64,000 nt of DNA, from assembly GCF_030758455.1 (NCBI RefSeq), contig NZ_CP132353.1:992001-1056000 (forward strand), written 5' to 3'. Positions 28,837 through 51,767 of this stretch are shown here, piece by piece. The notes beneath the pieces are model-generated. The model searched no databases. It worked only from the letters and a program-made list of their open reading frames with translations, and was not told the DNA's origin. The stretch's first letter is position 1. Every line of letters begins with the position of its first letter. Source of the stretch: Erwinia pyri (GTDB lineage Bacteria > Pseudomonadota > Gammaproteobacteria > Enterobacterales > Enterobacteriaceae). The translations under genes were made by a program, and so were the position numbers.

Positions 28837-31398
28837 CTACAGCATCGTTTTCAGGCGATAGATCCACTCAAGCGCCTGCCGTGGAGAGAGCGAATCGGCA
28901 TCCAGCGCCTCAAGCGCCTCCACGGCGGGGGAGGTCTCCTCTACCAGCAGCGGCAGCTGTGGGCCATCGGCGGAAGTACTGGCCGCACTGCCTGACAGCG
29001 TCTCCAGCTCTTTAAGCTTCTGCCGCGCCCGTTTGATCACCTCTTTTGGGACGCCTGCCAGCGCCGCCACGGCCAGACCGTAACTTTTGCTCGCCGCGCC
29101 ATCCTGTACGCTGTGCATAAAGGCGATGGTGTCGCCGTGCTCAATGGCATCCAGGTGAACGTTGACCACACCCTCCATCTTCTCCGGCAGCGTGGTCAGC
29201 TCAAAGTAGTGGGTAGCAAACAGCGTCATCGCTTTAATGCGGTTCGCCAGGCTCTCGGCACAGGCCCAGGCCAGCGACAGACCGTCATAGGTTGAGGTAC
29301 CACGCCCGATTTCATCCATCAGCACCAGGCTCTGTTCGGTAGCGTTGTGCAGGATATTGGCCGTTTCGGTCATCTCTACCATAAACGTTGAGCGGCCCGA
29401 GGCGAGATCGTCCGCCGCACCCACGCGGGTGAAAATGCGGTCAATCGGCCCCAGCGTCGCCTGTTCAGCCGGCACATAGCTGCCGATGTAGGCCAGCAGC
29501 GTGATCAGCGCGGCCTGACGCATATAGGTGCTCTTGCCGCCCATGTTGGGCCCGGTGATCACCAGCATCCGGCGCTGCGGGGAAAGCGACAGCGGATTGG
29601 CGATAAACGGCTCTTTCAACACCTGCTCCACAACCGGATGGCGTCCGCCGACCAGTTTGATGCCGGGCTTATCGGTCAGCGTCGGGCAGGTGTAGTTCAG
29701 CGTCCAGGCGCGCTCGGCCAGGTTAACCAGCACGTCCAGCTCAGCCAGTGCGGCAGCGCTGAGCTGCAGCGCTTCCAGATGCGGCAGCAGCAGGTCAAAC
29801 AGCTGCTCATAGAGCATTTTTTCCAGCGCCAGCGCTTTCCCTTTGGAGGTGAGAACTTTGTCTTCGTACTCTTTCAGTTCGGGAATGATATAGCGCTCGA
29901 CGTTTTTCAGCGTCTGCCGACGGACGTAGTTGATGGGCACGCGGTGGCTCTGCCCGCGACTCACCTGAATATAGTAACCATGCACCGCATTGAAGCCGAC
30001 TTTTAAGGTATCCAGCCCCAGCTTTTCACGCTCGCGGATCTCAAGCTGGTCAAGATAATCGGTAGCGCCGTCCGCTAATGCACGCCATTCGTCCAGCTCC
30101 TCGTGATAGCCAGGGGCGATGACGCCACCATCACGAACCAGTACCGGAGGCGCATCGATGATCGCTTTTTCAAGCAGCTCGCGCAGTTCGTCAAACTGTC
30201 CCATCTGCTTACGCAGCGTTTGCAGATGGGGCGTAGCGATATCAGCCAGCAGCGCATCCAGCGGCGGAAGCTGCTGGAACGCATGACGCATGCGGGCCAG
30301 ATCGCGCGGACGGGCGGTTCTCAGCGCCAGACGGGCAAGAATACGTTCCAGATCGCCAACCTGACGAAGCAGCGGCGAGACCTCCGCAGTGAAATCCTGC
30401 AGCGCGCCAATACTCTGCTGACGGTTTTCCAGCGTTTTGATATCACGCACCGGCATATGCAGCCAGCGCTTCAGCATGCGGCTGCCCATTGGCGTGACGG
30501 TTTTATCCAGCACGGAGGCCAGCGTGTTTTCCATCCCGCCGGCCAGATTCTGGGTGATCTCCAGATTACGGCGGGTAGCCGCATCCATAATGATGCCATC
30601 CTGCTGGCGATCCATGGTCAGCGAACGGATATGGGGCAGGGAAGTGCGCTGCGTATCCTTGACATATTGCAGCAGACAGCCCGCCGCCCGCAGCGCATGA
30701 TGCGCCTGCTCAACGCCAAAACCAGAGAGATCGCGGGTGCCAAACTGCATATTCAGCTGCTGGCGCGCGGTCTCCACCTCAAATTCCCACAGCGGGCGCC
30801 GACGCAGCCCACGCCGGTTTTCAATCAGCGACATCGCGGCGAAATCTTCGGAGTAGAGCAGTTCCGCCGGGTTGGAGCGGGTCAGCTCCGCCGCCATCGT
30901 CTCCAGATCGGTCGGTTCTGCCAGGCGAAAACGACCGGAACTGATATCCAGCGTGGCGAAGCCAAAGCCGCGCGGCCCCTGCCAGATAGCGGCCAGCAGG
31001 TTATCCTGACGCTCCTGCAGCAGCGCTTCATCGCTGATGGTGCCTGGCGTGACAATGCGCACCACTTTGCGCTCCACCGGCCCCTTGCTCAGCGCCGGGT
31101 CGCCAATCTGCTCACAGATAGCCACCGACTCACCCAGCTGAACCAGCTTCGCCAGGTAATTCTCCACGGCATGATAGGGCACGCCAGCCATCGGAATCGG
31201 CTCACCGGCCGATGCGCCACGTTTGGTCAGCGAGATATCCAGCAGCTGCGAGGCTCGTTTGGCATCGTCAAAGAACAGCTCGTAGAAATCCCCCATGCGG
31301 TAAAACAGCAGAATGTCCGGATGTTCCGCCTTCAGGCGAAGGTACTGCTGCATCATGGGGGTGTGAGTGGAAAAATCCTTGTCTATAGACTCTTTCAT
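28837..31398 (-). CDS. mutS: DNA mismatch repair protein MutS with element-supplied 5' end
   Basis: An 853-residue mismatch-recognition ATPase. The mismatch-binding Phe-x-Glu is in RMGDFYELF, Walker A is [15 protein letters not shown], Walker B is [16 protein letters not shown], and the C-terminal tetramerisation tail [15 protein letters not shown] is complete. From HTPMMQQY onward it aligns with E. coli MutS without gaps of note. The first 11 residues ([11 protein letters not shown]) do not belong to the host gene: the native start lies at 51767, beyond the integrated element. ATG 31398 (CGAG upstream) and TTG 31437 (GGGG upstream) are both possible starts; the TTG would add 13 residues. Transcription must now start inside the element. 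Confidence 0.95.
31340..31365. repeat. attL: 26-bp direct repeat in mutS codons
   Basis: Identical over 26 bp to 51709-51734 and in the same orientation. The plus strand reads AGGTACTGCTGCATCATGGG and then GGTGTG. Its complement encodes HTPMMQQY of MutS. Identity stops abruptly at both ends. Confidence 0.92.
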
Positions 31399-31544
31399 AT
31401 TGAATTCACTCGTTTTTATGGTTTTATAAGTACTCAAGTGGCCCCATTTGAAACCCTGATAAACCTATCTAAATTCGAAAATTTGTAGGCCAAGAGTATC
31501 CTAGATACTATCCAAAATACTCCTTGGAACTTTGGTATACATGA

Positions 31545-32937
31545 GGCGAAAATCTTGAAGATGATTCTGAGTCAATCCATAGTAATCAACAAGTTGTTAT
31601 AGAGACAAAACCGGAGTTTGATTCAGATGGACGAGTTATGTGTGTGCCTAATGTATCTGGTAAGCCGTATCTTATCATTGACAGCCATCGGGATTCACCA
31701 GTTGGCTTTAGTGTTAAGGTAAGTGCGACTAAAAAGACATACATCATTCAGAGAAGAGTTTCTGGTGGTGACAGAAGCCCTTCAGAGGGCAAGGCACCTT
31801 CCCAAGCCATCTGATCTACAAGAGGTAATGTTTCGGATTTAGCTTCAATTGATTAAACTCGTGAGTTCGCCAGAACCTGTGCCCAATCGATGAGGTCAAC
31901 GAAAAGAAATCCAAATGTAGTTAAGCGAGAGGCTGATATCGCTGAGCTGACTCTCAGGGAGATTTTCGCTCAATACCGACAACATTTTCTTGGACGAAGC
32001 AAACCTGCAAAACCAAACTCAATCCTTGTGCTGAACAAAGCGAAACAAAAGCTCAAAGAATGGGAAAGTTATCGAGTTCGTGATCTGACAGAAAGCATCA
32101 TTCTCAAAAAGTTCGATGAGATGGCCTCAAAGACCAGAAAGACGGCCGGACAAACTTTTCGGTGGGCAAGTGTCGCTGTACAACATGCTATCGATGTAAA
32201 GGCAATGAATGCTCAGAGTCAGCAACGACTACCCGTTCTCCCTAAAATCCATTTACAGTCCTCAGGGTACAAAAGAAATACCGAAGTCGCTCTTAATTGG
32301 AAGAAAGCTATAAGTCAAAGGGTGTGAGAAATCCTCTTTCACCTAAAGATATATTGGGGAAGTTTCTCGATGTATTGCACAACAAAAGAAACTTCAATCG
32401 CCTTGGTTGCGATTATCTCCTGCTAACGGTGTTGCCAGGGGCGAGAAAGGAAGAAACGGCCTCCCTCTGCTGGAGAGAAGAGCTATCAGTAGAAGAAGCA
32501 AAGACTGCGAGCTATGTCGATTTGGCTAACAGGAAAATTTTCTTCTTTGATACCAAGAGCAGGACGAACCATGAGCTTCCCATCTGTGATGTGGTCAAAT
32601 GTTTGTTAGAGGACAGAAGAGATATCATTTTTGATAAGGAACAAAGGCTAGCTGTAGGAAATGGGTCTTTTCAACACGATCTTCACGAAGCCGAGCTGGA
32701 CATTACAATGACAGCAAGAGTCTTAAGAATTATCTCTGTGCAGAGGCTGGAATCGTAAAGTTGGGGATTCATGACTTGAGAAGAACCTTTGGCAGGATCG
32801 CTAAAGAGCTTGTTTCATAAGCAGTAGTTAAGAAGCTTTTAAACCATTGCAATATGACTGATCCAACAGAGAGGAATGCGGAACCGGATAAAACCGTGTT
32901 TATGAAGCACTTCAGCGGATTGAACTACAAATACTGA
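31545..32937 (+). pseudogene. Decayed tyrosine recombinase (phage-type integrase)
   Basis: Several frames together spell an integrase. The arm-binding domain is at 31.55-31.81 kb (GKPYLIIDSHRDSPVGF, then TKKTYIIQRRV). Core-binding and catalytic parts follow at 31.89-32.33 kb and 32.30-32.76 kb, where an Arg lies in LPGARKEETASLCW. The box II motif HDLRRTFGRIAKEL is near 32.77 kb, then an in-frame stop, and the tail NKTVFMKHFSG-like sequence ends at 32937. At least two frameshifts and two stops break the gene. It probably mobilised this or an earlier element at mutS and is now dead. Confidence 0.8.
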
Positions 32938-33072
32938 TGACTGCTCCAAAGTTATATAATAGTTTGTTTTCATCAGCTAAATATCCTCCAATAACTGACA
33001 ATTCTTGGTGGTCTTCGGGATTGGCGGAATGGTCATAGGTATTGCTTTTCCCTTTAAAATTAAAATTTATAA

Positions 33073-34293: not shown

Positions 34294-34566
34294 ATGACAA
34301 AAATCATAAGTAAAAACGAATATTCAGAATGGGTATTGCGGAGCAGCCTTTACTGGATGAGTGCTGTTGCTCGCTGGAAGCTGGATGAAGACGAGCAGAG
34401 CTGGGGCGTTTCGTTCGAACCATTCAATGATCAGGTTGAGTTCGAGTTTGAACGGCTGTTGAATGACTACAAACTCAGGCAGAAGCTCCAGACACATACC
34501 GGGCAGGTCAGGACTTCGATCATCGACAATGTTCTCAGGAGCATCGATTCGAGACTTGCCGAATGA
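34294..34566 (+). CDS. hxsD: His-Xaa-Ser system protein HxsD
   Basis: A 90-residue soluble protein, MTKIISKNEYSEWVLRSSLYWMSAVARWKLDEDE..., matching the small HxsD component in size and position at the head of the cluster. HxsD family members have no known biochemical role; they accompany the two radical SAM enzymes HxsB and HxsC and the repeat protein HxsA and may act as a carrier or recognition subunit. Its stop overlaps the hxsB start (ATGA), indicating translational coupling. The call depends mainly on context. Confidence 0.8.
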   Translation: MTKIISKNEYSEWVLRSSLYWMSAVARWKLDEDEQSWGVSFEPFNDQVEFEFERLLNDYKLRQKLQTHTGQVRTSIIDNVLRSIDSRLAE

Positions 34567-35957
34567 ATACGATGCCATTCAACTTTGATCACCTGAGCAA
34601 TGGCAAGGTCTTCATCAGCAACCTTGCTGGCTTTCACAGCTTCGTCGATAACGAAGAACTATATCTTCTTGCCGATAACAACTTTTCTTCAGAGCAAACC
34701 ATCTCACGACTACTTGAAAGCAGATTGTTCATTGCAGACGATGCTACTCAAGCAGTTTCAAAAGCCTCCCTGAGTTCTGCCTTTGCCAAACGACTGATGA
34801 ACGAACTGGCCGTCCGGCCTATCTTCATGATTGTGCCGACTCTCAGATGCGATCACACATGCAAGTATTGCCAGGTCAGCAGAGCATCGGTTACCGCTGA
34901 TGGATATGACCTCAACCCAGAACTGATAACGCAAATCGTCAGCACGATTAAGAAGCTGGGCACTCCGCCATACAAGGTTGAAGTGCAGGGGGGTGAACCG
35001 CTTCTCAGGTTCGATCTCGTCCAGGCAATTTATGAAGAGTGTGTGAGTTCTTTAGGTAGTGATGCTTTCGAAATGGTTATTGCCACGAGTCTCTCAATAC
35101 TCGATGAAAGCATCCTCTCTTGGGTTAAAGAACGGAATATCACCTTTTCTGTCTCTCTTGATGGTAATGAAGCCGTCCATAATAAAAACCGTATCCTCAC
35201 CGACTCTCAGGCTCACAACAAAGCCGTCACGGGCATTAGAAAAATCACAGAAGAGCTTGGAACAAACCGGGTAGCTACGGTAACCACAGTTACTAAGGAG
35301 CTGACAAAAGAGCCAGCTTCCATAGTGGATGCTCATCTGTCTCTTGGCCTAACCGACATGTTTATCAGGCCAGTAAGTCCTTATGGGTTTGCTCAGAAGC
35401 AGAGTTTCACTTTTTCAATGCCTGAATATTTTGAGTTTTATAAAAAGTTAATGCAGGAAGTGTTGCTTCAGAACCAGAAGGGCATACCTGTTGTTGAGCA
35501 TTCGGCTTCAATCCATCTAAAGCGAATTTTCAATCCGGGCTTCAGTGGTTATGCAGACTTGAAATCACCAAGCGGAGTAGTGCTGAACTGCATCCTGTTC
35601 AACTATGACGGCAAGGTCTACGGAAGCGACGAAAGCCGTATGCTCCAGAAAGTAAATCCCGAAGCAGATTTCAGTGCAGGAGAGTTTGCTTCACTGTCAT
35701 TCAGTAGCAACGAATACTATCGTTCAGCTCTCTCATCATCATTCAACTTTGCCATGCCCGGTTGTGATACCTGTGCTTACCAACCTTTCTGTGGAGCAGA
35801 TCCTTGCCAGAACATCAGTGTTCATGGCGAGCCTGTTGGTGACAAGAGTCGGTCAACCTTCTGCCAGTATCACAAAGGGATGTTCCGCTTCCTGCTGAAT
35901 GAAATCTCTCAGGATGGACCAATGGCTGAGATGCTCAAAAGGTGGGCTTATGTCTGA
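34563..35957 (+). CDS. hxsB: His-Xaa-Ser system radical SAM maturase HxsB
   Basis: A 464-residue radical SAM protein. The cluster motif CDHTCKYC has Cys at 96, 100 and 103; VEVQGGEPLLRFD is the SAM-binding GGE. The C-terminal region, with CDTCAYQPFCGADPCQ, is a SPASM-type auxiliary cluster domain found in peptide-modifying enzymes. HxsB with HxsC is expected to modify residues of the HxsA repeat peptide. It overlaps hxsD by 4 bases and hxsC by 8. Codon use is more GC-rich than in the flanking genes. Confidence 0.9.
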   Translation: MNTMPFNFDHLSNGKVFISNLAGFHSFVDNEELYLLADNNFSSEQTISRLLESRLFIADDATQAVSKASLSSAFAKRLMNELAVRPIFMIVPTLRCDHTCKYCQVSRASVTADGYDLNPELITQIVSTIKKLGTPPYKVEVQGGEPLLRFDLVQAIYEECVSSLGSDAFEMVIATSLSILDESILSWVKERNITFSVSLDGNEAVHNKNRILTDSQAHNKAVTGIRKITEELGTNRVATVTTVTKELTKEPASIVDAHLSLGLTDMFIRPVSPYGFAQKQSFTFSMPEYFEFYKKLMQEVLLQNQKGIPVVEHSASIHLKRIFNPGFSGYADLKSPSGVVLNCILFNYDGKVYGSDESRMLQKVNPEADFSAGEFASLSFSSNEYYRSALSSSFNFAMPGCDTCAYQPFCGADPCQNISVHGEPVGDKSRSTFCQYHKGMFRFLLNEISQDGPMAEMLKRWAYV

Positions 35958-37062
35958 GGTGCTGAGGAACGATATTTTCCGGTTTTCATCAGACTTACCA
36001 GTTCAGCAAGGCTTCTATTGTCTGTGTAAAACCAAACCCGAGAATCCTCAATTTTATCTGCCAAATTTGCTTGTAACTGCGACACAACTCAATTCCAGAC
36101 TGCCTGCATATTTTGCAGACTCGATTGTGAGCCAGGAACTTTTCGATTCCATAGAAGATGGTGACATTGGGATCGTCAACAACGGCAACATGCTCCGGGT
36201 GATACTGTCCCGTAGAGCAAACCACAACACTGTCCTTGTCACCGAAAGGTGCAACAACAGTTGCCTGTTTTGTTCTCAGCCTCCCAAAACAGGCAACGAT
36301 GACTGGCTTCTCAACCAGTCAGCTCTCGCTATCGCTTCCTTCTCTTTGAATGGAGTAGTGGGAGTGAGCGGGGGAGAGCCTTTGCTCTATGGCGAAGACT
36401 TCCTGCATTTTCTGGACTTCATAATCGAAAATTCCCCTGACACAGCACTGCATGTTCTTACCAACGGACGGAAGTTTGCGGATGTCAGCTTTACCAAGCA
36501 GATGAAAGAAAGAAGCGAGAAGATCAAAATCACGTTTGGGATACCGCTTTATTCCTCAAGAGCATCAGTGCACGACTACCTGGTCGGAAGCGAGGGAGCG
36601 TTTGATGAAACAGTCAGGGGAATGATTAATGCCGGTAACTCAGGGATCAACATAGAACTGAGAGTTATCCCTACTCAGGCGAACTACACAGAGCTTGATG
36701 ACATTGTAGAGTTTGTTGGCCGTGTGTTCTCGAACATTAACCAAATTTCTCTGATGGGACTGGAGTCGATTGGATGGGCCCGTAAGAACTGGTCATCAAT
36801 CTTCATAGAGCACGACAACTACAGCGAACAAATCCTTTCGGCTGTAGACACTGCACACAGGTCAGGTATCCCCCTTACCATCTTCAATTATCCACTATGC
36901 CACCTTCCTGAAAGGGCATGGAATTTTGCAACTCAGTCGATCTCTGACTGGAAAAATTACTATCCAAAAGAATGTGATGAATGCACTCAGAAGTCTTCCT
37001 GTGCTGGTTATTTCAGTTCATCAAAAGGCCGTTTTCATCAACCTCCGAGACCAATAATATGA
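35950..37062 (+). CDS. hxsC: His-Xaa-Ser system radical SAM maturase HxsC
   Basis: A 370-residue second radical SAM enzyme, starting MSEVLRNDIFRF at the ATG that overlaps the end of hxsB. CNNSCLFC places the cluster Cys at 101, 105 and 108, and VVGVSGGEPLLYGED is the SAM-binding motif. The C-terminus KECDECTQKSSCAGYFSSSKGRFH contains further Cys that could bind an auxiliary cluster. The two different radical SAM proteins in tandem define the His-Xaa-Ser system. The stop overlaps the hxsA start by four bases. Confidence 0.9.
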   Translation: MSEVLRNDIFRFSSDLPVQQGFYCLCKTKPENPQFYLPNLLVTATQLNSRLPAYFADSIVSQELFDSIEDGDIGIVNNGNMLRVILSRRANHNTVLVTERCNNSCLFCSQPPKTGNDDWLLNQSALAIASFSLNGVVGVSGGEPLLYGEDFLHFLDFIIENSPDTALHVLTNGRKFADVSFTKQMKERSEKIKITFGIPLYSSRASVHDYLVGSEGAFDETVRGMINAGNSGINIELRVIPTQANYTELDDIVEFVGRVFSNINQISLMGLESIGWARKNWSSIFIEHDNYSEQILSAVDTAHRSGIPLTIFNYPLCHLPERAWNFATQSISDWKNYYPKECDECTQKSSCAGYFSSSKGRFHQPPRPII

Positions 37063-37691
37063 AAAAGTTTAATTTCGCGGCTCTGCTTCCTGGTTTTTTG
37101 GCTCTTAATAACTCTGTCTGGGCAAGTGATTCATCTACTGGTGCCAGTGACTTACCTGGTATGACTTTGAACGAACAGGATTTGGTGATAGCTCCGCTCA
37201 ACACCGAAGTGCCGTTCTACATTGCAGGACACAGAAGTCACAGTTCTCACCGTAGCCACAGCTCACACCGTTCCTCATCAGGCGGTGGCTACTATGGCGG
37301 AAGCACTCCTTACTACCCCAAGACATACAGCTCGCCAAGCACCTCAGACTCATCCAGTTCAGGAACTCGTTCGTCCTCGTCCTCCTCTGTCCGTTCACTT
37401 CGCTCTAATGACACAGATAGCACAACCACAACAAACTCAGCAGGAACCACAGGTGCCAATCGATCGAGTAGCGGGCTAACTTCGGATACTGAAAAACGTA
37501 AGCGGTTAATCATGCGAGTGCAGTTCGCCTTACTCGATAAAGGTTTCTACAACGGTAATATTGACGGAAGTATGGGACCTGCGACAAGGACAGCAATCAA
37601 GAATTATAGAGTTGCAAATGGACTACCTATACCGGTAAGGGAAACCTTGGATACACAGTTGTTAAATTCATTAAGTATTTTAGCTCGCTGA
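37059..37691 (+). CDS. hxsA: His-Xaa-Ser repeat protein HxsA with peptidoglycan-binding domain
   Basis: A 210-residue exported protein. The signal peptide MKKFNFAALLPGFLALNNSVWA is followed by five tandem His-Xaa-Ser units at residues 58-72 (HRS-HSS-HRS-HSS-HRS), a Gly/Tyr then Ser/Thr-rich linker, and a C-terminal PG_binding_1 domain (VQFALLDKGFYNGNIDGSMGPATRTAIKNYR). This is the presumed substrate of HxsB and HxsC; the repeats would be the modified part and the C-terminal domain would anchor it to the cell wall. The mature function is unknown. The start at 37059 couples it to hxsC; an earlier ATG (36981) lies inside hxsC. Confidence 0.92.
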   Translation: MKKFNFAALLPGFLALNNSVWASDSSTGASDLPGMTLNEQDLVIAPLNTEVPFYIAGHRSHSSHRSHSSHRSSSGGGYYGGSTPYYPKTYSSPSTSDSSSSGTRSSSSSSVRSLRSNDTDSTTTTNSAGTTGANRSSSGLTSDTEKRKRLIMRVQFALLDKGFYNGNIDGSMGPATRTAIKNYRVANGLPIPVRETLDTQLLNSLSILAR

Positions 37692-37755
37692 AAGAAGATA
37701 GTTACGTTTGACAGTTTTGATATCAATATCATTTTATACTAAAAGGAGTTTAATT

Positions 37756-41138: not shown

Positions 41139-41146
41139 TTTACACC

Positions 41147-42019: not shown

Positions 42020-43552
42020 TTATATTACATCCTTATTATCTGTTGAAAGCATATTAAAGAATGGCTTGATATCATCAAAACGATACATTTCGAAAAGAAG
42101 GTTATTGTTATCTTTAAGTTTTAATTGATTTTCAAAAAAATCTATTGATGGCAAGATATAATAATCAACAGGCTCAGTATTAAAACTATTCATTCTTGCA
42201 ATGATACTAATTTCTGGATTTAGACTCCTGTCTAATCGCACTAACCATCTATGTTTGTTTAACCCTGTTTTTTTACATCGTGAAAGCACTATGGAAAAAC
42301 TTAAAGCTTTATTAACTGTAATCAGCTTATTTTCTAAAATCTTTACTTCACTGCTTAGAATCTCATTTTGTATTTTGTTAACAATGGCATCGTGTTTCTT
42401 TCGCAGATAAGAGTTTATCTCTAAGTATTGATAATCTCGCTCAGGGGTGTAGTCGATTAATTTATAAGCATTGAGAAGACCTCCAAAGCGGTTTGCAATA
42501 ACACTACTTGATGGACTACTATCCTCTTCATCTATAATAAATCCTGAAATTTTCCCATGTTTGGAAAGAATTTTTCTCAAACAATCAAGAATTTTTTCAT
42601 TGCTCATTTTTATAGAACGATTATCAATTATTTCTTTAGCTAATTTAAATTTTTCTTCTGAAATAATGGGTTTGAAAAAAGAGCTATATTCAACCCATTC
42701 ATCTTCAGGGTTTCTAACCTTTTTTGTCTTTAACTTTTGTGATGTCCGGTTGTATGTGTATTTCCCTGTATATCTACTATTGATAAGAACAGAGTGAATT
42801 CGACCTCGTGTCCATTCTGTTTTATCGCTGAATCTATACCCCTCCTGATTAAGTCGTGAAGCGATAAGATACTCATTTAACCCGTCAAAAATGAACATAT
42901 TAAAAATCTTTTTTATCAGCTCAATTTCTTTTTTTGTTCCAGGAACGAGAACAATTCTGTCTGTTTGAAGGCTCTTTCTCTCCCCATGAGCGAGTATCAT
43001 CTTTGATTTGTTATTATTATCAAGTAACTTTCTTTTAAGCCCATATCCCGGCTTACCGCCTTGGTAATACCCTCTCTTAACAAGATTCACATGTCCTGCA
43101 AAAACTTTTATTGAAAGGTTTTTACTGAATGCACCTGCTGCATACATTAATGATGAAAGTATGAATGTCTCAGTTTCACTGTTTTCTGGGAGATTCTCGG
43201 CACAATAGATGACATCTACGTTGTTCATTTTCAATAGGTATTTATAGTAAATACCCTCTTGAGGATCTTTGAATCGACCAAAACGACTTACATCGTATAC
43301 AAGTATTGCATCAATATTAATTTCGTTTGTAATAACATCATTAACAAGTTTATTAAAATCATGCCTTCCAGTTGTAGATACCCCACTTTTACCTGCGTCG
43401 TCATAGGTATGTATGATCTCCATATTGTGCGTATCAGCATAATTTTTGATGAATTGGGCTTGATTATCCAGTGAAAATTCTTGGAGGTTTGTGGACATCC
43501 GTAGATACTGGGCAACCTTAAGTTTATGAATATATTCAACTTTATCAGCCAT
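42020..43552 (-). CDS. Large serine recombinase
   Basis: A 510-residue site-specific recombinase beginning MADKVEYIHKLKVAQYLRMS at 43552, preceded by AAAGGAAC. The catalytic Ser20 lies in YLRMSTNLQ; ILVYDVSRFGRFKDP is the conserved resolvase segment, and GGKPGYGLKR ... SVLINSRYTGKYTYNR is the Recombinase domain. The C-terminal third lacks the usual CxxC zinc ribbon that I would expect at about residue 300. The frame is open 39 codons upstream without family sequence. This is the only intact integrase in the element and the likely agent of movement at mutS. Confidence 0.9.
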   Translation of the reverse strand: MADKVEYIHKLKVAQYLRMSTNLQEFSLDNQAQFIKNYADTHNMEIIHTYDDAGKSGVSTTGRHDFNKLVNDVITNEINIDAILVYDVSRFGRFKDPQEGIYYKYLLKMNNVDVIYCAENLPENSETETFILSSLMYAAGAFSKNLSIKVFAGHVNLVKRGYYQGGKPGYGLKRKLLDNNNKSKMILAHGERKSLQTDRIVLVPGTKKEIELIKKIFNMFIFDGLNEYLIASRLNQEGYRFSDKTEWTRGRIHSVLINSRYTGKYTYNRTSQKLKTKKVRNPEDEWVEYSSFFKPIISEEKFKLAKEIIDNRSIKMSNEKILDCLRKILSKHGKISGFIIDEEDSSPSSSVIANRFGGLLNAYKLIDYTPERDYQYLEINSYLRKKHDAIVNKIQNEILSSEVKILENKLITVNKALSFSIVLSRCKKTGLNKHRWLVRLDRSLNPEISIIARMNSFNTEPVDYYILPSIDFFENQLKLKDNNNLLFEMYRFDDIKPFFNMLSTDNKDVI

Positions 43553-44079
43553 TTGAGTTCCTTTATGGAACAGTGGAAAAATATGAATGACTAAAAATTG
43601 ATCAATTTTCAACCAGTTGCAACCCTTTTTTAATTCCTGTTTAGTTTTTTTGATCGGTCCAAGCCACAAGTTCTCTGCGAGATTAGGTGATTGAGAGGGA
43701 CCAAGTAAGAGTTAGAGAATTATGCAAAATGAGAAATTTATATGACTCCAGCTCTTAGACATGAGTCATAAGTTGGCGATTTAAGGATGTGAAGAGCCAC
43801 ATTCTGAAAGAATTGGAATATTTATTTTTAGAAGCAAAGTCGCTTAATCCATATAAAGAATAAATTCGAGCAAAAAGCAAATGAACTATTACAAGTTGAG
43901 TGGAAATGATATGATCAACATTTAAATTGAGGAATTTTGTCTGTTAAATTATAAGAAATATAATTTTTGAATCCTCAAAATGTAAATGCTTACAGTGTAT
44001 GAATTGATAAGGTGGGGTTGACTTTAATAAAAAATAAGATAAAAAATTATATGATATTCACTCAAAGAGGAGGTTTGGC
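43553..44079. other. AT-rich gap upstream of the serine recombinase
   Basis: This 527-base stretch contains only short frames, the best about 25 codons near 43.79-43.86 kb (VKSHILKELEYLFLEAKSLNPYKE), possibly a gene remnant. It must hold the recombinase operon promoter. Confidence 0.4.
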
Positions 44080-44475: not shown

Positions 44476-44502
44476 ATTTTCAAAAAATTATATTTTGGAA
44501 AA

Positions 44503-44536
44503 AATAAAAGCCAGTCATTCATTCCTGGCTTTTATT
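44503..44536. terminator. Bidirectional terminator next to the araE copy
   Basis: The stem AATAAAAGCCAG / CCTGGCTTTTATT has a loop of about nine bases, with A and T runs on both sides. A matching hairpin follows the intact araE at 57810-57842. Confidence 0.85.
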
Positions 44537-44546
44537 AGGTTTAAAC

Positions 44547-45977
44547 TTACTGGCCCAGATCGCGAAGCTTCTTACCAGACATCAGATTTTTTCAATATGC
44601 TCAAGAGTAACCCCTTTAGTTTCAGGGACGAGCAGAAAAGTTATCACGATGAAGACCAGATTGAATCCCGTATAGAGCCAGAATGTCCCAGCCTGACCTA
44701 TGCTACCTAGAAGTGAAAGGAAGGTCGCACCGATAATCATGTTTGCAACCCAGTTCGTCGTGGTTGAACAGGTAATCCCAAAGTCCCGGCATTTTAGGGG
44801 CTGTATTTCAGAACACAATATCCACACCACAGGAGCAGCACTCATAGCATAACCACCGATGCATAACATCGTCATACCCACTGATACCCACTGACACCCA
44901 TGACAGACCCGTGCTGATATCTCCCTGACCCGATTTCATCAGACAGTAGCCCAGAACCATTGTGGCGAAGGCCATTACACTGAATCCTATCTTCAGGATT
45001 GGCTTCCTTCCCGTCTTATCAACGGTGAAAACTGCAATAAAGGTAGCAAACATGAAGGTCAGACCCACGACAATGGTCGCAATCATCTGCTCCTGAGTGC
45101 TCTGGTAACCAGCCATTCTAAAAATCTGAGGAGCGTAATACATGATAATGTTCATACCAGTAAACTGTTGCATACCCTGTAGCAACATACCAAGATAGAC
45201 GGCTCGTCTCACATTGCTGTTTTTCCTGAAAAGAGCAAACCCTCCCTGCTTCATACGAAGGCTTTCCCTTATCTCATTCAGCTCCTGTCGTGCTTTCTCA
45301 GATGTATCTCTGAGCATTCTGAGTACTTCTTCCGCCTCTACATGCAAACCTTTAGAAGCCAGCCAGCGGGGGCTGTTAGGCAGGAATATCACCATAACGA
45401 AAAGAATAATCGCTGGTATAGCGAGAACTCCAAGCATTGCCCGCCAGTTGCCACTGTAAATGAATGCTGTATCCGACAGAAAAGCTACAACAATTCCAAA
45501 AGTGATCATGAGCTGATAAAGGCTGATCATTTTTCCGCGCACATTCTCTGTCGCCATCTCTGACAGATAGAGTGGGGCTGTGTAGGAAGCAATACCAACG
45601 GCCAGCCCGAGCAGAACCCTGAATGTAAGAAAACCTTCGACACTGTTTGCGAAAGCAGAACCAAGTGAACCTGCGATGAAGAAGATGGCTCCAGCCATAA
45701 GGCTGTATTTTCTTCCCAGACGATGCGAAACCCAGCCATTGCAGATCGCTCCAATCGCGGCTCCCAGCATCATACTGCTGACAACCCATTCCTGTTCATG
45801 ACTGGTTAACTGAAAATGTTTTGTGATGAAAGGCAGGACACCTGAGATTACCCCTATATCCAGTCCAAAAAGAAGCCCTGCGAGAGCAGCAGAAATGGAT
45901 ACAAAGAGATTCATTCTTCTAACTTTTGATTGATGGTCACTATCGTATGTGACTCTCTGATTTACATGAGACATCAT
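44547..45977 (-). pseudogene. araE: Degenerate araE copy (arabinose:H+ symporter)
   Basis: The DNA runs parallel to the intact araE at 57855-59276 from start to stop. The frame is broken twice: near 44880-44900, where a TACCCACTGA duplication shifts the frame, and near 44583, where one base is missing in an A run so that the protein ends EHIEKI instead of [18 protein letters not shown]. The pieces keep the sugar porter motifs, for example [13 protein letters not shown] and [14 protein letters not shown] identity to the intact copy is roughly 85 percent by eye, too low for a recent duplication. Confidence 0.85.
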
Positions 45978-46059
45978 TAAGCTCCGCTCATACAGCATGT
46001 AATAGTGCTCAAGCTTACTCAGGGGGTTCAGGCAGGATTAGGGCAACTGTCTCTCCAGA

Positions 46060-46076
46060 TATGGACTTTATTGCTA
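46060..46076 (-). promoter_or_regulatory. AraC half-site upstream of the araE pseudogene
   Basis: The minus strand reads TAGC-AATAAAG-TCCATA, matching the araI1-type consensus TAGC-N7-TCCATA. The same site precedes the intact araE. A TGTGA-N6-TCTCT CRP-like sequence is close by, near 46.09 kb. Confidence 0.65.
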
Positions 46077-46137
46077 TAGCTGTAGTTTGTGTGATGAGGA
46101 TCTCTCTACCGATCCTCATCATCATAATATTTTTTCA

Positions 46138-46500
46138 ACTAAATAATATTTAATGGCTTGTCCCAGTCATATCGAGCCAGCACAAGTTTGATTTTACCTT
46201 CAATTACACCATGTTTTTTCTGAGTGTGAGAAGAAATATTCTCTAACGAGTGGTGGCAACTTCTTAGGCTTATAACTCAATATAATTGTATGCCAGAAGT
46301 TAGGGGCAGGGCATTACCAGGGTATCTATCCTGTAACTTTGACTGCCAGTCAGAACTCATAAGATCATCCCAAAATATTTTTCTCAGGTGGGCTGAGTTA
46401 CTGTCAAGAATTTCAGCCAATAATAATTTATTAGGAGGTGCTATAAACTATAGATCTTTTACTTTAAGTACTCTATTTCTAATTAATAGTAATGATGTAA
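46138..46500 (-). pseudogene. Truncated 2H phosphoesterase copy
   Basis: The DNA matches the 3' part of the intact 2H phosphoesterase gene at 59444-60130, including the codons around the second His motif (plus strand ATTGTATGCCAGAAGTTAGG versus GTTGTATGCCAGAACTCAGG). The homology fades before the first His motif. No long reading frame survives. Confidence 0.7.
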
Positions 46501-46613: not shown

Positions 46614-46919
46614 TCAAATAATATTCTCAAAAAGATAGGGTTTAGACATCCAGTCAATAATCGTGCCGATATCGTCATAAGATAAGCAAGATATATCTTT
46701 AAACAAATCGAAGCCAAAATTTTTTCCGCTCCATATTGATAGGAAAAATCGAGCCATTATTTTCTCATTGATAGGCAGTTTAGTAAGAGCATTTATTAAA
46801 GAGAGTGTGTCACATGTACCTTCATGAAAGTTCCAATAAATACTGATGTTTTCGTACCCCGCGATCGATGATAAAAAGAATAAATAGTCCTCATTCATTA
46901 ATGATTTTGTAATGTTCAT
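46614..46919 (-). CDS. Hypothetical small protein
   Basis: A 101-residue frame (MNITKSLMNEDYLFFLSSIAGYENISIYWNFHEG...) with no recognised family, few charged repeats and no membrane segment. No strong RBS precedes ATG 46919; ATG 46898 (MNEDYLFF) is an alternative. It sits between the decayed 2H phosphoesterase copy and the biosynthetic operon. Its composition is like real protein rather than shadow sequence, but it may be a remnant. Confidence 0.4.
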   Translation of the reverse strand: MNITKSLMNEDYLFFLSSIAGYENISIYWNFHEGTCDTLSLINALTKLPINEKIMARFFLSIWSGKNFGFDLFKDISCLSYDDIGTIIDWMSKPYLFENII

Positions 46920-47130
46920 GTAGTGACCGTCACATAGTTGTTTATATAAGTCATTGATTTAAAACGTTTTGTTTAATTTTCTTTGCAAAAAAACAAATTT
47001 TAACAATTTTTTTTGATGAAATTACATTAGTTTACCTTGCATCATTATGCTGTACATAGTATTTCTTCAAGTGAAATTTTTATGTTTTCACACAGAATGA
47101 TAAGTTCGCTAATTAATATCAGAGGTAAAG

Positions 47131-48078
47131 ATGGAACTGGATCAAGTAGGTAATACTAAACTTGTTCAACTCTCTGCACTTGAGGTTAACAGTAATAAGT
47201 TATTTGCAAAATGTGAGTTTCAAAACCCTACAGGTAGTCACAAAGATAGAACCTTTTTGCACATAATAAATTCGCTGGAAGAAGAGGGTAAAATCAAACC
47301 TGGCATGACACTGGTGGACTGTTCAACCGGAAATGGTGGGGCTGCCTTAGCGTGGATAGGGAGGGAAAAGGGTTATAAAATAAAAATCTTCATGCCTGAA
47401 GGAATGACTGAAGAAAGGATTGCACAGATCAAAAAATACGGTGCGGAACTTGTTGAGACATCCAAAGAAACTTTTTTGAATGGTTCGGTGCTTGCTGCAA
47501 AAGAATACACTGAACAAAATAAGAATGCTTTCTATTTAAACCAAGCTAGTAGTGTCCTCAATATGGAAGCTTGGTTTGAATGTGGTCATGAAATCGTAAG
47601 GGATTTAAATAGTAAAGAGTTAATACCTGATTATTTTGTATGTTCTATAGGCACTGGTGGAACGTTTTCAGGGATAGCAAAAGTATTAAAAGATAATTAT
47701 CCAAACTTGAAAACAATTGGTATTGAAGTTAATAAGTCGGCTCCAGTTTTTTCAAAAAGAAATGGAATCGAATTTAAGCATGAACCTCATAACTTAATGG
47801 GGTTGGGTGCCGGTGTTTTATCTGATAATACAGATCTTTCTTTGATAGATGAAATAAAAGTTGTTGATGGTGATTTAGCTTGGGAAAGAATGAAAGCTTT
47901 CATTGAAACCGAAGGGTTGGGAATAGGCCCTACTTGCGGCTCTAACATAATGATTAGCGAGCAATTAATGTTAAAGGTCAAAGATAAAGTCATAGTGACT
48001 CTATTTTTTGATAGTGCTTGGAAATACGAGAGTCGGTGGAATGGAATTTATCCAGAATATAGCCTGAAGGGAAAGTAA
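47131..48078 (+). CDS. PLP-dependent cysteine/threonine synthase-like enzyme
   Basis: A 315-residue fold-type II PLP enzyme. Lys38 in NPTGSHKDRTF should bind PLP; STGNGG (65-70) is the substrate loop and GTGGT (174-178) the phosphate loop. Relatives carry out beta-replacement on O-acetylserine or O-phosphoserine (CysK, CysM, SbnA) or gamma-replacement (threonine synthase). SHKDR rather than the SVKDR of CysK sets it apart from the housekeeping enzyme. First gene of a tight five-gene operon, RBS AGAGG; it probably builds the amino acid core of a secreted compound. Confidence 0.82.
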   Translation: MELDQVGNTKLVQLSALEVNSNKLFAKCEFQNPTGSHKDRTFLHIINSLEEEGKIKPGMTLVDCSTGNGGAALAWIGREKGYKIKIFMPEGMTEERIAQIKKYGAELVETSKETFLNGSVLAAKEYTEQNKNAFYLNQASSVLNMEAWFECGHEIVRDLNSKELIPDYFVCSIGTGGTFSGIAKVLKDNYPNLKTIGIEVNKSAPVFSKRNGIEFKHEPHNLMGLGAGVLSDNTDLSLIDEIKVVDGDLAWERMKAFIETEGLGIGPTCGSNIMISEQLMLKVKDKVIVTLFFDSAWKYESRWNGIYPEYSLKGK

Positions 48079-48080
48079 TT

Positions 48081-48644
48081 ATGTTGCTAAAGCAAATCTA
48101 TGAGAATGCGAAAGTTGTTAACTCTGGTAAGACATTAACTACGGTAAATGAATTTACAGATCAACTTCCAGCATTGAGGCCAGAAGTGCTGATTGAAGTT
48201 GCTTATAAAATAATGAATGAAATCGATTGCACATTTGACAAAATTGTTACGGAAGAGGATAAAGGTGCACCTCTTGCAACGGCACTTTCTCTTTTAACTG
48301 GTAAACCTTTGGCAATGGCTAGGTGGTATCCATACAGTCTTAAAGAATATAACACCAATGTTGTAAACATAAAGTCTGAGTATTTTGAAGGGAAGATGTA
48401 CTTAAATGGGATCGACAAAGGAGATAAAATATTAATTATTGATGATACTCTCAGCACTGGAGGAGCCGTTATTTCATTAGTTAATGCTATAGAAAATGCA
48501 GGAGGAAAGATCTGTAAAATTATCTGCGCTGTTGAGAAAGTTCAGAACAATGGCAAAGAAAAAGTTAAGATTGAGACTGGGCACGATGTAACTACGATCA
48601 TAAAAATAAATGTCACTGAAGATAAAGTCACAGTGGTGGAATGA
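48081..48644 (+). CDS. Purine phosphoribosyltransferase-like protein
   Basis: A 187-residue type I PRTase. The PRPP loop is LIIDDTLSTGGAV (119-131), and VTEEDKGAPLATALSLLTGKPLAMAR is similar to archaeal-type hypoxanthine/guanine and adenine PRTases. Two bases follow the previous stop. In a biosynthetic context it could transfer ribose-5-phosphate onto, or release it from, a base-like intermediate, or provide self-resistance by salvaging a purine analogue. The base specificity cannot be read from sequence. Confidence 0.8.
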   Translation: MLLKQIYENAKVVNSGKTLTTVNEFTDQLPALRPEVLIEVAYKIMNEIDCTFDKIVTEEDKGAPLATALSLLTGKPLAMARWYPYSLKEYNTNVVNIKSEYFEGKMYLNGIDKGDKILIIDDTLSTGGAVISLVNAIENAGGKICKIICAVEKVQNNGKEKVKIETGHDVTTIIKINVTEDKVTVVE

Positions 48645-49303
48645 TGATATTAAGTACAGAGCAAGTTCTTAAAAACTATCTGACTATCAAAGAGAAAATA
48701 TCGCAGATTACAAATCAAGCAAAACTTCTAGCAGTATCAAAATTCCATGGAATGGATAAAATTGCTCCATTGATCAAAAATGGTCATAGAATTTTCGGTG
48801 AGAGCAGGCTTGAGGAAGCAGTCGAGAAATGGTCTGAGGTTCGTAAACAGTTTTCAGATATTGAATTGCATTACATTGGTGGCATACAATCCAGAAAAAT
48901 ATCAAAAATTGTAGAGTTTTTTGATGTTATACAATCTGTAGATAAGTTATCAGTTGCTGAAAAAATCTCTGCTACTGCAAAAGAATTAGGTAAATGTCAA
49001 CGGATATATATTCAAATTAATATTGGTAATGAACCACAAAAAAGTGGCGTCCCGCCAAGTGAGTTTGAGGATTTATATTTCAAAATAAAAAATATGGAAA
49101 ATATACACATAGAAGGGATAATGTGTATTCCCCCTAATGAAAAAGATGTGAGCCTCTACTTCATTCAAATGAAGGAGCTTGCTTCGAAGGTTGGGAGTAA
49201 ACAGTTGAGTATGGGAATGAGTCACGATTACGAACTTGCCTTGCATTATGGAGCAACCATCGTTAGAGTCGGTAGTTTTATATTTGGTGAAAGGTCTGGC
49301 TAA
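48641..49303 (+). CDS. YggS/PLPBP-like PLP-binding protein
   Basis: A 220-residue alanine-racemase-N-terminal-like TIM barrel. Lys34 in LLAVSKFHG should bind PLP; ELHYIGGIQSRKI, IQINIGNEPQKSGV and LSMGMSHDYELALHYGATIVRVGSFIFGER are the family signatures. Housekeeping YggS regulates PLP homeostasis and has no known reaction. This copy is AT-rich, diverged from enterobacterial YggS, and lies inside the operon with overlapping start and stop codons on both sides, so it probably serves this pathway, perhaps supplying PLP to the synthase or acting as an enzyme. Confidence 0.85.
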   Translation: MMILSTEQVLKNYLTIKEKISQITNQAKLLAVSKFHGMDKIAPLIKNGHRIFGESRLEEAVEKWSEVRKQFSDIELHYIGGIQSRKISKIVEFFDVIQSVDKLSVAEKISATAKELGKCQRIYIQINIGNEPQKSGVPPSEFEDLYFKIKNMENIHIEGIMCIPPNEKDVSLYFIQMKELASKVGSKQLSMGMSHDYELALHYGATIVRVGSFIFGERSG

Positions 49304-50235
49304 TGAAAGCAAATCCTGTATCAGTCGGTGTAGTCTGCGGTATAGTCTTTTGCGGCATTAGTGCCGCATTTGACGTTTATGTTTCGAATATCACACAAAC
49401 ATTAGAACCTTCAGTCTTTATAGTATACTGTTTTATTATAGCTACTACGATATTCACTTCAATCAGCTTGTTTAGAAGCGGCACATCTTACTTTAAAAAA
49501 AGCTTTCATGACATTCGCTTATTAACTAAGGTTAATGTAGCAGTCATGTTAAATTGGGGTGGGTTAATACTTTCTCTCAAATATCTTGAGCCTGCTGTGG
49601 TTGGAATAGCATCGGTTGCCTGTGGTCCTGCTCTTACTATAGTGATTTCTCGTTACTTTATTCGCTCCAGTTCTCCGCCGAATAGAACAGAAGCATTTAT
49701 TGCATGGATAATACTTTTCGGAGTTATTGTTATGCTTATAAATTCTTACTTCGGCAAAAGTGGAGTTGTTAACACCTCTCATATCGAAAGATTGATAGGC
49801 ATTATAAGTGTTGTTTGTAGTGCAGTTGGCACTGTTTTATATACCTTTTTTTCTAAAGATTTAGGTAATAAAGGCTGGAAGTCCTATGAGATTTTAGGTC
49901 TTCGTAATTTATTAATGCTCTTAATCGCATTAGCATATTGCAGTTATAATAATATTAATTTGATTACAACTGAGAGTCTATTATTAACTATTATTCTGCT
50001 TTCAGTTTTAGGTCATGTTATTCCTATTTTTCTTATCCAAAAATCAATTAGTATTCTTGACCCCATTCATGTTTCTCTTCTACTTCTCTTGCTTCCTGTT
50101 TTCACATTGTTATTACAGTTCTTTGATAGCAGGATTTTTATATCATGGGAAAGTATACTCTCCGTTGTTATAATTACTTTTTTATTAATTTTCCTAGGCA
50201 TCAATAAATTCAATGCAAAGAAGAGAGGATTGTGA
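49303..50235 (+). CDS. EamA/DMT-family exporter
   Basis: A 310-residue membrane protein with about ten hydrophobic helices in two EamA repeats (residues about 5-140 and 155-300). The start overlaps the previous stop by one base (TAATG). DMT exporters usually move amino acids, purine nucleosides or small toxic metabolites. Its place in the operon suggests that it secretes the product and gives self-protection. Confidence 0.85.
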   Translation: MKANPVSVGVVCGIVFCGISAAFDVYVSNITQTLEPSVFIVYCFIIATTIFTSISLFRSGTSYFKKSFHDIRLLTKVNVAVMLNWGGLILSLKYLEPAVVGIASVACGPALTIVISRYFIRSSSPPNRTEAFIAWIILFGVIVMLINSYFGKSGVVNTSHIERLIGIISVVCSAVGTVLYTFFSKDLGNKGWKSYEILGLRNLLMLLIALAYCSYNNINLITTESLLLTIILLSVLGHVIPIFLIQKSISILDPIHVSLLLLLLPVFTLLLQFFDSRIFISWESILSVVIITFLLIFLGINKFNAKKRGL

Positions 50236-50236
50236 G

Positions 50237-51475
50237 ATGAAAAGAATTGCAATTGTTGACGGTTTTTCCTCTGGCAAATTTATAGCTAAAGGGCTTTATG
50301 AAAAAGGCTGTGAACTCATTCATATATCCTCAAGTGATGAACTTGACTCATACTATTACAATGGGTTTGAGTATCATATATATATTGATTCGATTGTTCA
50401 TGAAGATATGGATAAAACAATCGAATTTATAAGTAAGTTTGGAGCTGAATGCGTTATTGCTGGGACGGAGAGTGGTGTTACTCTTGCAGATAATCTTAAT
50501 AAAAGGCTACAGTTAACTTATACTAATAGTATAGAGAATATTTCTTCTCGCCGTAATAAATATGATATGATCGAAAAAGTACGTTCGGCAGGTCTTAATG
50601 CTGTTGACCAGATAAAAATTTCTAATTGGCAGGAATCCAAAACATGGTTAAAAGATAGAGCATACCCAATTGTCTTAAAACCTCTGGAGAGTGCTGGTTC
50701 AGATGGAGTATTTATTTGTAAGGATGAAAATGAAGTTCGCAAAGCATTTGAGCTGGTTTCTAAAAAGAAAAATAAACTTAATCTGATAAATGATGAGGTT
50801 TTGCTACAAGACTTTTTAGAGGGATGTGAATATGTAGTAAATTTTGTATCGCTGGATGGTAAGTTTGTAACAACAGAAGTTGTTAAATACCACAAAAGGA
50901 AACTTGAATCCGGCAATATTGTTTACGATATAGATGAAATAATTGACTCTGATAGTGAGGAATTTGAAGGTCTTGTTGAATACACAAGTAGAGTGTGTGC
51001 TGCTTTAGGTATAATTAATGGACCTAGCCATGCTGAGGTTATGATTACTAAAAAAGGTCCTTATTTAGTTGAAATTGCTGCACGTAGTGATGGCATCCTT
51101 CGACCAGATGTTGCCTCTGAAACCACCGGGCTTGGACAATTAGCAGCTACAGTATTATCGCTTACTGAGCCTGAAAAATTTCTAGATATTGCTCGTCAAC
51201 CTCCTTATAAATTAAAGAAATTCTCATTTAATGTTTGTTTGATATGTCCTCGAACAGGCATATTTGACGATCATGAAATAAGAAAAAAAGCTAAAGATTT
51301 GGTGTCTTTTCAACGGATTGAACTTTATGTGAATTCTGGGTCTACAGCCAGTCAAACGAAAGACGTTTTCAGTCAACCTGGAACGATTTATTTAGTGAGT
51401 GAAAGTAAGAACCAATTGTGGGAAGATTATAAAAAAATTAGGACCCTCGAAGAATCCGGTTTTTACTTGAAGTGA
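50237..51475 (+). CDS. ATP-grasp domain ligase
   Basis: A 412-residue enzyme starting MKRIAIVDGFSSGKF at 50237, one base after the exporter stop, with GAGAGGA upstream. The N-terminal domain is Rossmann-like, and the central ATP-grasp region has KPLESAGSDGVFIC (nucleotide loop), LLQDFLEGCEYVVNFVSLDGK and GPSHAEVMITKKGPYLVEIAARSDG (metal-binding Glu). The order of motifs resembles L-amino acid ligases of the BacD/RizB type, which join two amino acids through an acyl phosphate. It is the last gene of the operon and would be the coupling step. Confidence 0.85.
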   Translation: MKRIAIVDGFSSGKFIAKGLYEKGCELIHISSSDELDSYYYNGFEYHIYIDSIVHEDMDKTIEFISKFGAECVIAGTESGVTLADNLNKRLQLTYTNSIENISSRRNKYDMIEKVRSAGLNAVDQIKISNWQESKTWLKDRAYPIVLKPLESAGSDGVFICKDENEVRKAFELVSKKKNKLNLINDEVLLQDFLEGCEYVVNFVSLDGKFVTTEVVKYHKRKLESGNIVYDIDEIIDSDSEEFEGLVEYTSRVCAALGIINGPSHAEVMITKKGPYLVEIAARSDGILRPDVASETTGLGQLAATVLSLTEPEKFLDIARQPPYKLKKFSFNVCLICPRTGIFDDHEIRKKAKDLVSFQRIELYVNSGSTASQTKDVFSQPGTIYLVSESKNQLWEDYKKIRTLEESGFYLK

Positions 51476-51483
51476 TTTCAATA

Positions 51484-51506
51484 CCGCCTCATTAGAGGCG
51501 GTTTTT
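51484..51506 (+). terminator. Terminator of the five-gene biosynthetic operon
   Basis: A perfect 7-bp stem (CCGCCTC / GAGGCGG) with an ATTA loop is followed by five T. It lies just after the ATP-grasp stop codon. Confidence 0.93.
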
Positions 51507-51659
51507 AAATTAAAATGTAATTTTAATTTTTCCATATGTCCTATTGTTAAAAACCATTCTACTTTTTTTATCATTTTTGTAAGTTTATCATAAAAAACAT
51601 CCATCTGCTTTTGCCAAGTCGCTATTAAATTAAAAGTATTCTATATGTATACTTTTAAT

Positions 51660-51767
51660 TTAATTCCACATTTTATTATATATATTCAATAAGATAAAAG
51701 GTTTATATAGGTACTGCTGCATCATGGGGGTGTGGGAATCTAAATTTTTGTTGTCAATCATAGACAT
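51660..51767 (-). pseudogene. mutS: Stranded native 5' end of mutS
   Basis: ATG 51767 reads [19 protein letters not shown], the expected N-terminus of an Erwinia MutS, and is then diverted at the attR edge into 16 element-encoded residues ending at TAA (51660-51662). The result is a 35-residue frame. It should still be driven by the original mutS promoter. Excision of the element would rejoin it to the gene body at 31340. Confidence 0.85.
51709..51734. repeat. attR: 26-bp direct repeat
   Basis: Identical to attL at 31340-31365. The bases on either side differ from those at attL, which marks the limits of the element at this end. Confidence 0.92.

Follow-up and report, generated by a model that had tools for sequence, protein, structure and literature searches.

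In the window analysed here (64,000 nucleotides of Erwinia pyri contig NZ_CP132353.1, positions 992,001 to 1,056,000), mutS is interrupted after codon 11 by a site-specific island of about 20.4 kb. The gene now begins with an element-type start, and its native first 11 codons are displaced to the far, right-hand end of the island. As proposed in a preliminary description of this DNA, the island is bordered by a 26-bp direct repeat, AGGTACTGCTGCATCATGGGGGTGTG, with two exact copies (attL and attR in Table 1) that fall in the mutS codons for HTPMMQQY, the gene body standing on the left and the native first codons on the right. A search of the whole genome (4.76 Mb, at most 3 mismatches) returned these two copies and no others. 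The mutS body is read on the minus strand from an element-type start (start codon 31398-31396), and the second mutS start, at the right end (start codon 51767-51765), reads on into non-mutS sequence. The interval is AT-rich, with 29-46% G+C in the 1-kb bins from 32 to 51 kb and about 57% in most bins to the left. With a probability of roughly 0.93, it is a decayed genomic island of an already known group whose members integrate in the mutS codons HTPMMQQY.

The empty site, which the preliminary description had suggested looking for, is present in related Erwinia genomes. Six of them (L077-L082) were picked from 25 Erwinia genomes with a native-type start, according to the resemblance of their starts to the displaced one. 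In all six the two flanks of the window lie directly together, with the repeat as their overlap: the alignment of the mutS body reaches window position 31365 and continues unbroken into window 51709 onward, and when the window flanks are joined, the resulting mutS start can be aligned over the junction with 78-82% identity. As for excision to a circle, empty sites were observed in these relatives, not in the window strain. The attachment (att) core, also expected in uninterrupted mutS genes, was found in all 37 Erwinia genomes (at most 2 mismatches) and in 249 of 394 genomes evenly sampled from the order.

Comparison of attL and attR in 15 pairs (the window, five Escherichia coli records, and nine further genomes, with the two ends of G012 and of G458 located on separate contigs) places the exchange within the 14-mer TACTGCTGCATCAT. 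It is exact at both ends in 12 pairs; in G441, G452, and G457 one of the two ends carries a single change. Immediately right of the 14-mer, the next 9 bases disagree between attL and attR in 14 of the 15 pairs, the window being the sole agreeing pair, and thus 26 bp is the most that the exchange region can span. Far copies in G018, G456, and Brenneria locus L110 were kept outside this comparison, having more changes or having been found later as single loci. Of the displaced starts, 10 are native-type and five (G028, G029, G438, G441, and G455) element-type; in the latter pairs, therefore, new elements entered already rewritten genes. Element-type displaced starts at L063 (G438), L064 (G441), and L076 (G018) point to successive or tandem insertions at mutS. 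All five annotated E. coli islands have the native start at the far end (MSAIENFDA in four and MSTIENFDA in one) and the element start on the gene.

Start types were assigned from the codons preceding HTPMMQQY at the locus of the mutS body, one per genome, and sorted by eye from the peptides. According to this typing, 12 of the 37 Erwinia genomes have element-type starts (G000, G002, G006, G007, G012, G017, G018, G026, G028, G029, G030, and G036) and 25 have native-type ones. Element starts typically read M-[NKQ]-E-S-x-D-K-D-[LF]-S-x, and such variants as MNQSIDRDLSG and MKESASKDLSD were counted as element-type. Beside this start lies a tyrosine integrase gene, referred to below as family I, which is read away from mutS. 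Among the recombinases previously reported for the interval, the large serine recombinase is indeed open, whereas the tyrosine integrase proves to be a pseudogene: a search with the E. coli integrase shows five stops in three pieces, and residues 1-485 of the 489-aa G029 homologue are matched piecewise, with 71-88% identity. The integrase is full-length and open in four of the 12 element-type Erwinia genomes (G012, G028, G029, and G030) and truncated, broken, or fragmentary in seven. G007 has an element-type start and no integrase match (E. coli integrase query, E-value 1e-10); it is read as a decayed element, for which sequence alone falls short of proof. The same query matches 13 of the 37 genomes, namely 11 of the 12 element-type ones, G009, and G032, the fragment in G032 being about 490 kb away from mutS. 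G009 (L068, contig C45 near 9845) has a family-I left end with an integrase fragment and an element-type start lacking the mutS body; its mutS, elsewhere in the genome, has a native-type start.

The leader between mutS and the integrase gene, roughly 180 bp long, was aligned in loci of Erwinia, of E. coli, and of one further genus (G438 and G441). Counted separately, the leader is found in 133 of 5426 E. coli genomes and the integrase likewise in 133 of 5426. Two E. coli strains with 98% identity over the first 700 bp of their mutS bodies share 63% in the leader. Across 12 islands (G441 omitted; in G002, where the gene is truncated, the integrase stretch holds other sequence) similar leaders tend to go with similar integrases (Spearman 0.53, Mantel p 0.0008), the corresponding values for leader and mutS body being 0.22 and 0.055. 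Regarding nine relics, each compared with one reference, leader identity exceeds integrase identity in all nine, by 1 to 15 points, and the 45-nt start block equals or exceeds it in seven (exceptions are G026 and G459). Markedly stronger conservation of the start block than of the decayed integrase in relics was considered and set aside as weak, since the references were chosen by start and leader likeness, which favours both. New, as far as the listed literature matches go, is the observation that element-supplied mutS starts outlive island decay, in Erwinia and in Salmonella enterica.

Family-I integrases are spread widely. A single scan of named species genomes, seeded with two N-terminal peptide patterns, gave 36 loci, 30 of which have an element-type start and a mutS body 180-262 nt from the integrase match. 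These 30 belong to two metagenome-assembled genomes and 17 named genera: Dickeya, Erwinia, Salmonella, Pseudocitrobacter, Citrobacter, Yersinia, Pantoea, Enterobacter, Klebsiella, Serratia, Tatumella, Kosakonia, Brenneria, Samsonia, Rosenbergiella, Escherichia, and Raoultella. The other six comprise three loci without the motif (L106, L111, and L112), two having an element start without a mutS body (L108 and L113), and L120, whose native-type start stands 0.9 kb away from a fragment of the integrase. The Dickeya undicola integrase and that of an E. coli dog isolate are 100% identical in the best segment (residues 1-487). The even sample of 394 genomes, however, yields only three matches at E-value 1e-20 (the window genome and two fragments of 64 and 77 residues), and the genus of G162 has matches in 3 of 25 genomes at 1e-10, so the distribution is broad but patchy. 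The intact E. coli integrase matches the Phage_integrase domain above its cut-off and Arm-DNA-bind_3 below it. The position of the integrase beside the att site, divergent from mutS, is consistent with an integrase-attP module.

Two relatives with an open integrase are the islands of G028 (25.4 kb) and G029 (28.1 kb). Both contain, in order, att, the integrase, a partner gene of about 197 aa, a four-gene recombinase block, a relaxase with a small mobilization gene, the His-Xaa-Ser (HXS) operon, a cargo gene, two ParB/RepB genes (one of them split in G029), the serine recombinase, and att, with other open reading frames (ORFs) interspersed. From HXS to recombinase, the ATPase gene excluded, they are about 88-92% identical to the window at the DNA level. 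Integrase, partner gene, recombinase block, and relaxase are shared with E. coli islands L003 and L004; the relaxase of L003, confirmed with Pfam, has homologues in G028, G029, G438, and L004, and a relaxase is annotated in L086 and L088 and is incomplete in L087. The five E. coli islands (L003, L004, and L086-L088) resemble the window island in integrase family, att site, and start swap. They differ in that their integrase is open, that they have a relaxase gene, though not a complete one in L087, and that their annotated cargo consists of Qat proteins, Drt3, a retron effector, or other genes. No relaxase homologue, partner gene, or four-gene recombinase block was found in the window island, and a search with G028 and G029 proteins at E-value 1e-3 gave no remnants of mobilization genes in the window. 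With no relaxase homologue found in it, the window island does not qualify as an integrative mobilizable element. GInts are genomic islands with a block of three tyrosine recombinases and a small gene. Such a block is absent from the window; the four-gene block in L057-L060 (G028 and G029), L003, and L004, two genes of which match Phage_integrase in L003 and two have no Pfam match, is one that we take to resemble it. A staphylococcal cassette chromosome type, which would have a CcrB-like serine recombinase, is not indicated, the Ccr score being 66.9 bits against a curated cut-off of 900.

The suggestion that the element may be a new integrative family is not supported, because islands in the mutS N-terminus have already been published for Pantoea. 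According to these papers, P. vagans C9-1 (2011) has such an island, bordered at its far end by a 52-bp mutS-like repeat and containing an integrase oriented opposite to mutS, further recombinases, a relaxase, parB, and repB; P. agglomerans P10c (2015) also has an island in the mutS N-terminus; and in a 2009 paper the island lies between mutS and narL, its empty site being probed by PCR. The window island shares the first-codon insertion with a far repeat, the integrase opposite mutS (here a pseudogene), and parB/repB with further recombinases. Judged by published description, the C9-1 and P10c islands have the same mutS N-terminus insertion, and C9-1 further resembles the window in its far-border mutS-like repeat, opposite integrase, recombinases, parB, repB, and several frameshifted mobile genes. 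In contrast to the pantocin A island of P. vagans C9-1, the window island has the HXS operon, the PDC-S06 ATPase, and the ATP-grasp operon instead of pantocin A genes, and no relaxase was found in it. The parallel drawn earlier with SpyCI of Streptococcus pyogenes holds insofar as both are islands at mismatch-repair genes and is otherwise loose. SpyCI, as described in the literature, sits between mutS and mutL, can cut mutL off from its promoter, and is nearer to staphylococcal pathogenicity islands than to phage; the window insertion lies inside mutS codons, with the frame kept and no such separation of mutL from mutS. Closer parallels in architecture, although with other target genes, are the dusA islands (Farrugia et al. 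2015; IMEVchUSA3) and SXT in prfC, where promoter and first codons are replaced and the frame is kept. In the published descriptions, dusA islands replace the 5' end of their gene, one of them lowered expression of its target, and SXT integrates at a 5' end (as reported in the IMEVchUSA3 paper).

Taken as site-specific integration followed by decay, the arrangement would have arisen when a tyrosine integrase inserted a circular element into mutS through recombination in the 14-mer; such integrase action on this site is what we infer. The mutS body would then be read from the element-supplied leader, which presumably carries the mutS promoter, and from 11 replacement codons; since the element supplies both, the protein would be kept whole, and the native start would be carried to the far end of the island. 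Several relatives with a relaxase would travel as integrative mobilizable elements with changing cargo, presumably transferred with the help of conjugative elements. The window island is probably fixed, with mutS read via the element-derived start, because its integrase is dead and no mobilization gene was found. Some observations weigh against this account. The integrase itself correlates with the mutS body (0.40, p 0.005, 12 islands), and over 35 pairs of E. coli and non-E. coli islands the correlation between leader and integrase is weak (0.25; leader and body −0.04). A promoter scan, which is weak evidence in either direction, detected no promoter-like site toward mutS in the element leader (one site in the opposite direction; mean of 1.0 in shuffled sequences), whereas the native flank at the far end has two (3 sites in total; mean of 0.6 in shuffled sequences). 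Finally, little in the compared islands corresponds to the right-hand 7 kb, with the porter copy and the cargo operon; part of the interval may therefore be of other origin.

The dead integrase and the lack of detected mobilization genes would also suit acquisition of the interval by homologous recombination with an island-bearing relative, rather than by integrase action in this lineage, as would the diverged copy of a neighbouring chromosomal stretch inside the island and the identity to G028 and G029 given above. However, the native start and flank at the right end match the empty-site relatives directly at the repeat, which is expected of site-specific entry into the lineage or a near ancestor, and decay may have come later; recombination thus appears rather unlikely. 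It is less probable still that the island continues to switch mutS in the manner of SpyCI, with integration lowering mismatch repair and excision restoring it. Although the leader lies between mutS and the divergent integrase gene, promoter-like sites toward mutS occur in the native flank and not in the element leader, and a dusA island is reported to have lowered target expression, an island with a dead integrase is not expected to excise by its own enzyme, and the reading frame of mutS is unbroken. A chance duplication that placed mutS codons beside an unrelated AT-rich region, for which it can be said that the window alone offers only a 26-bp repeat, is refuted by the empty sites, by the same arrangement in many genera, and by the integrase linkage, and has a negligible probability.

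Table 1. Features of the mutS island in the window (window coordinates; + and − denote strands).
Feature	Position	Strand	Remarks
mutS	28837..31398	−	intact frame; codons 1-11 (31398-31366) element-type, remainder host
attL	31340..31365	+	within the HTPMMQQY codons of mutS; TACTGCTGCATCAT (exchange region) at 31343-31356
Element-supplied mutS start and leader	31366..31560		between mutS and integrase gene; aligned in 16 loci
Family-I tyrosine integrase, pseudogene	31555..33005	+	frame changes and in-frame stops over nearly full length
ORF, 321 aa	33073..34038	−	no match in four family libraries
His-Xaa-Ser operon hxsD, hxsB, hxsC, hxsA (cargo)	34294..37691	+	common to islands of G028 and G029
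AAA_13 ATPase (cargo)	37708..39951	+	match to PADLOC family PDC-S06, E-value 3.7e-242
Two ParB/RepB-like genes	40266..42019	−	also in islands of G028 and G029
Large serine recombinase, open	42020..43669	−	Resolvase and Recombinase domains
Partial diverged copy of sugar-porter/ligase-like stretch 57800-59790	44490..46480		blocks of 74-86% identity
Cargo operon: PALP enzyme, PRTase, YggS-like PLP protein, EamA transporter, ATP-grasp ligase	47131..51475	+	no match in the plasmid collection
attR	51709..51734	+	repeat copy
Displaced native first 11 mutS codons, MSMIDNKNLDS	51735..51767	−	start reading and alignment with relatives

The cargo announced for the island is indeed there, in the form of the HXS operon, the PDC-S06 ATPase, and the ATP-grasp operon. 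The hxsB, hxsC, and hxsA copies are 94-96% identical to those of G028 and G029, hxsD 76-79%. PDC-S06 is a PADLOC family of known and candidate defence proteins. The ATP-grasp protein of the third locus has 94% identity to its counterpart in Pantoea brenneri, 89% to that in P. stewartii, and 74% to that in Dickeya dianthicola; it matches the NCBIfam dapdiamide A synthase model below the cut-off (243.8 of 840 bits). The operon perhaps makes a small amino-acid-derived compound. The operon has no match in the plasmid collection, and the 321-aa ORF has no BLAST relative among the compared islands. A large serine recombinase near the right end occurs in G028, G029, and G012 as well; the segment 40266-43669, with the ParB/RepB pair and this recombinase, is 91-99% identical near the right end of G028 and G029 and is possibly a module of its own. 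As for the sugar-porter duplicate, the island copy has a broken porter, the second copy lies outside the island, and G029 holds a piece at the same island position.

Just beyond the island, window positions 51921-52277 hold a fragment resembling the N-terminus of another tyrosine integrase, referred to as family II. Open frames of 433-439 residues from this family, close to and divergent from mutS, are found in G202, G284, G191, G204, and G359 (L162, L163, L164, L165, and L166, respectively), which represent three families of the order; six of the matching genomes were looked at, and the sixth (G424) has only a short frame near mutS. Remnants are seen in the window and in several Erwinia genomes, and at E-value 1e-4 a match is present in 17 of the 394 evenly sampled genomes, including that of the window. 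None of the five loci has convincing direct repeats marking its ends. Between positions 51400 and 53000 of the window no Rfam match was found. The region 52000-60500 is AT-richer, with ORFs that by eye resemble HAD, EamA, UPRT, and MarR proteins and with a nonribosomal peptide synthetase adenylation ORF (55962-58022), and is possibly another island. Three head-to-tail 34-bp repeats with 68-85% identity to the reference copy are found at 60275-60376.

The MutS of S. enterica starts with MNESFDKDFSN and is thus element-type. Proteins of this kind are P0123 (S. Infantis), P0124, P0127, P0128, and P0145 (Typhimurium), also P0125 and P0126; P0123 represents a cluster of 20372 members with the start taken from the representative, and the 120 listed MutS proteins are biased, the query having an element-type start. 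Among five Salmonella species genomes, four have an element-type start (G452 S. diarizonae, G453 S. arizonae, G459, and G460) and G461 has a native-type one, MTDIKNLDS. G460 is taken as S. enterica on the strength of its sequence; its MutS is identical in 518 of 518 positions to P0127, in 517 of 518 to P0123, and in 361 of 518 to the older P0145 entry (ungapped). An element leader and an integrase remnant (residues 1-132, 79% identity to the E. coli E24377A protein) adjoin mutS in G460, and in S. enterica this remnant lies between mutS and Salmonella pathogenicity island 1 (SPI-1). Among the matches listed, no S. enterica case of an element start was found in print, most subscription papers, such as Pancetti and Galan 2001 on the mutS-proximal region, being beyond reach.

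The SPI-1 gene invH was found in all five Salmonella genomes. Its distance from the mutS core is 0.65 kb in G461, 0.9 kb in G459, and 5.5 kb in G460; in G452 it lies about 0.64 kb from the displaced native-type start, itself 12.5 kb from mutS, and in G453 it is on another contig. InvR is in the same flank in G452, G459, and G461. Positions 1-275 of the G461 flank align at the displaced start of G452 with 86% identity; the flank resumes only at position 252 in G460 and 376 in G459, and both genomes have a single att core at no more than 3 mismatches, so their native start was apparently lost and the start swap in S. enterica is probably irreversible. Because the native-type starts of G461 and G452 are about 0.65 and 0.64 kb from invH, family-I islands appear to have entered between mutS and an existing SPI-1. 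Delivery of SPI-1 by a family-I integrase was accordingly considered and rejected, given the native start of G461 650 bp from invH without an island and the displaced one of G452 likewise. Between its native-type mutS start and InvR, G461 retains a 16-residue family-II scar (81% identity; 72 bp with 85% DNA identity to the window). A 2020 SPI-1 study describes fhlA-mutS as a hotspot without apparent integration sites and reports two integrase genes between ygbA and mutS in Shigella flexneri as well as integrases within the arizonae island, which is located between invH and mutS. In a 2013 S. Newport study the gene clusters from invH to mutS are reported to vary, one of them including an integrase and a type I restriction system. 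For E. tasmaniensis, inv/spa genes have been reported close to mutS.

These observations invite a wider reading, according to which mutS-targeting integrases have repeatedly and permanently captured the start and promoter region of mutS, built the SPI-1 hotspot, possibly brought SPI-1, and may temporarily shift MutS dose on each arrival. As a whole it is unlikely to be correct. Capture of the first 11 mutS codons in enterobacteria, including S. enterica, is nevertheless highly probable, whereas delivery of SPI-1 and changes in MutS dose by mutS-directed integrases are speculative; that such integrases built the hotspot would follow, in this wider reading, from the scar left by the second family between mutS and InvR.

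A 14-bp att site in mutS, together with its integrase family, would provide a concrete cause for the mutS-proximal part of the SPI-1 hotspot. For S. enterica and for 12 of the 37 Erwinia genomes, the beginning of MutS, and perhaps its transcription start, derives from mobile elements. This matters for mutS typing, for annotation of mutS starts, and for mutation-rate studies, and the att site and the integrase family show where to search public data.

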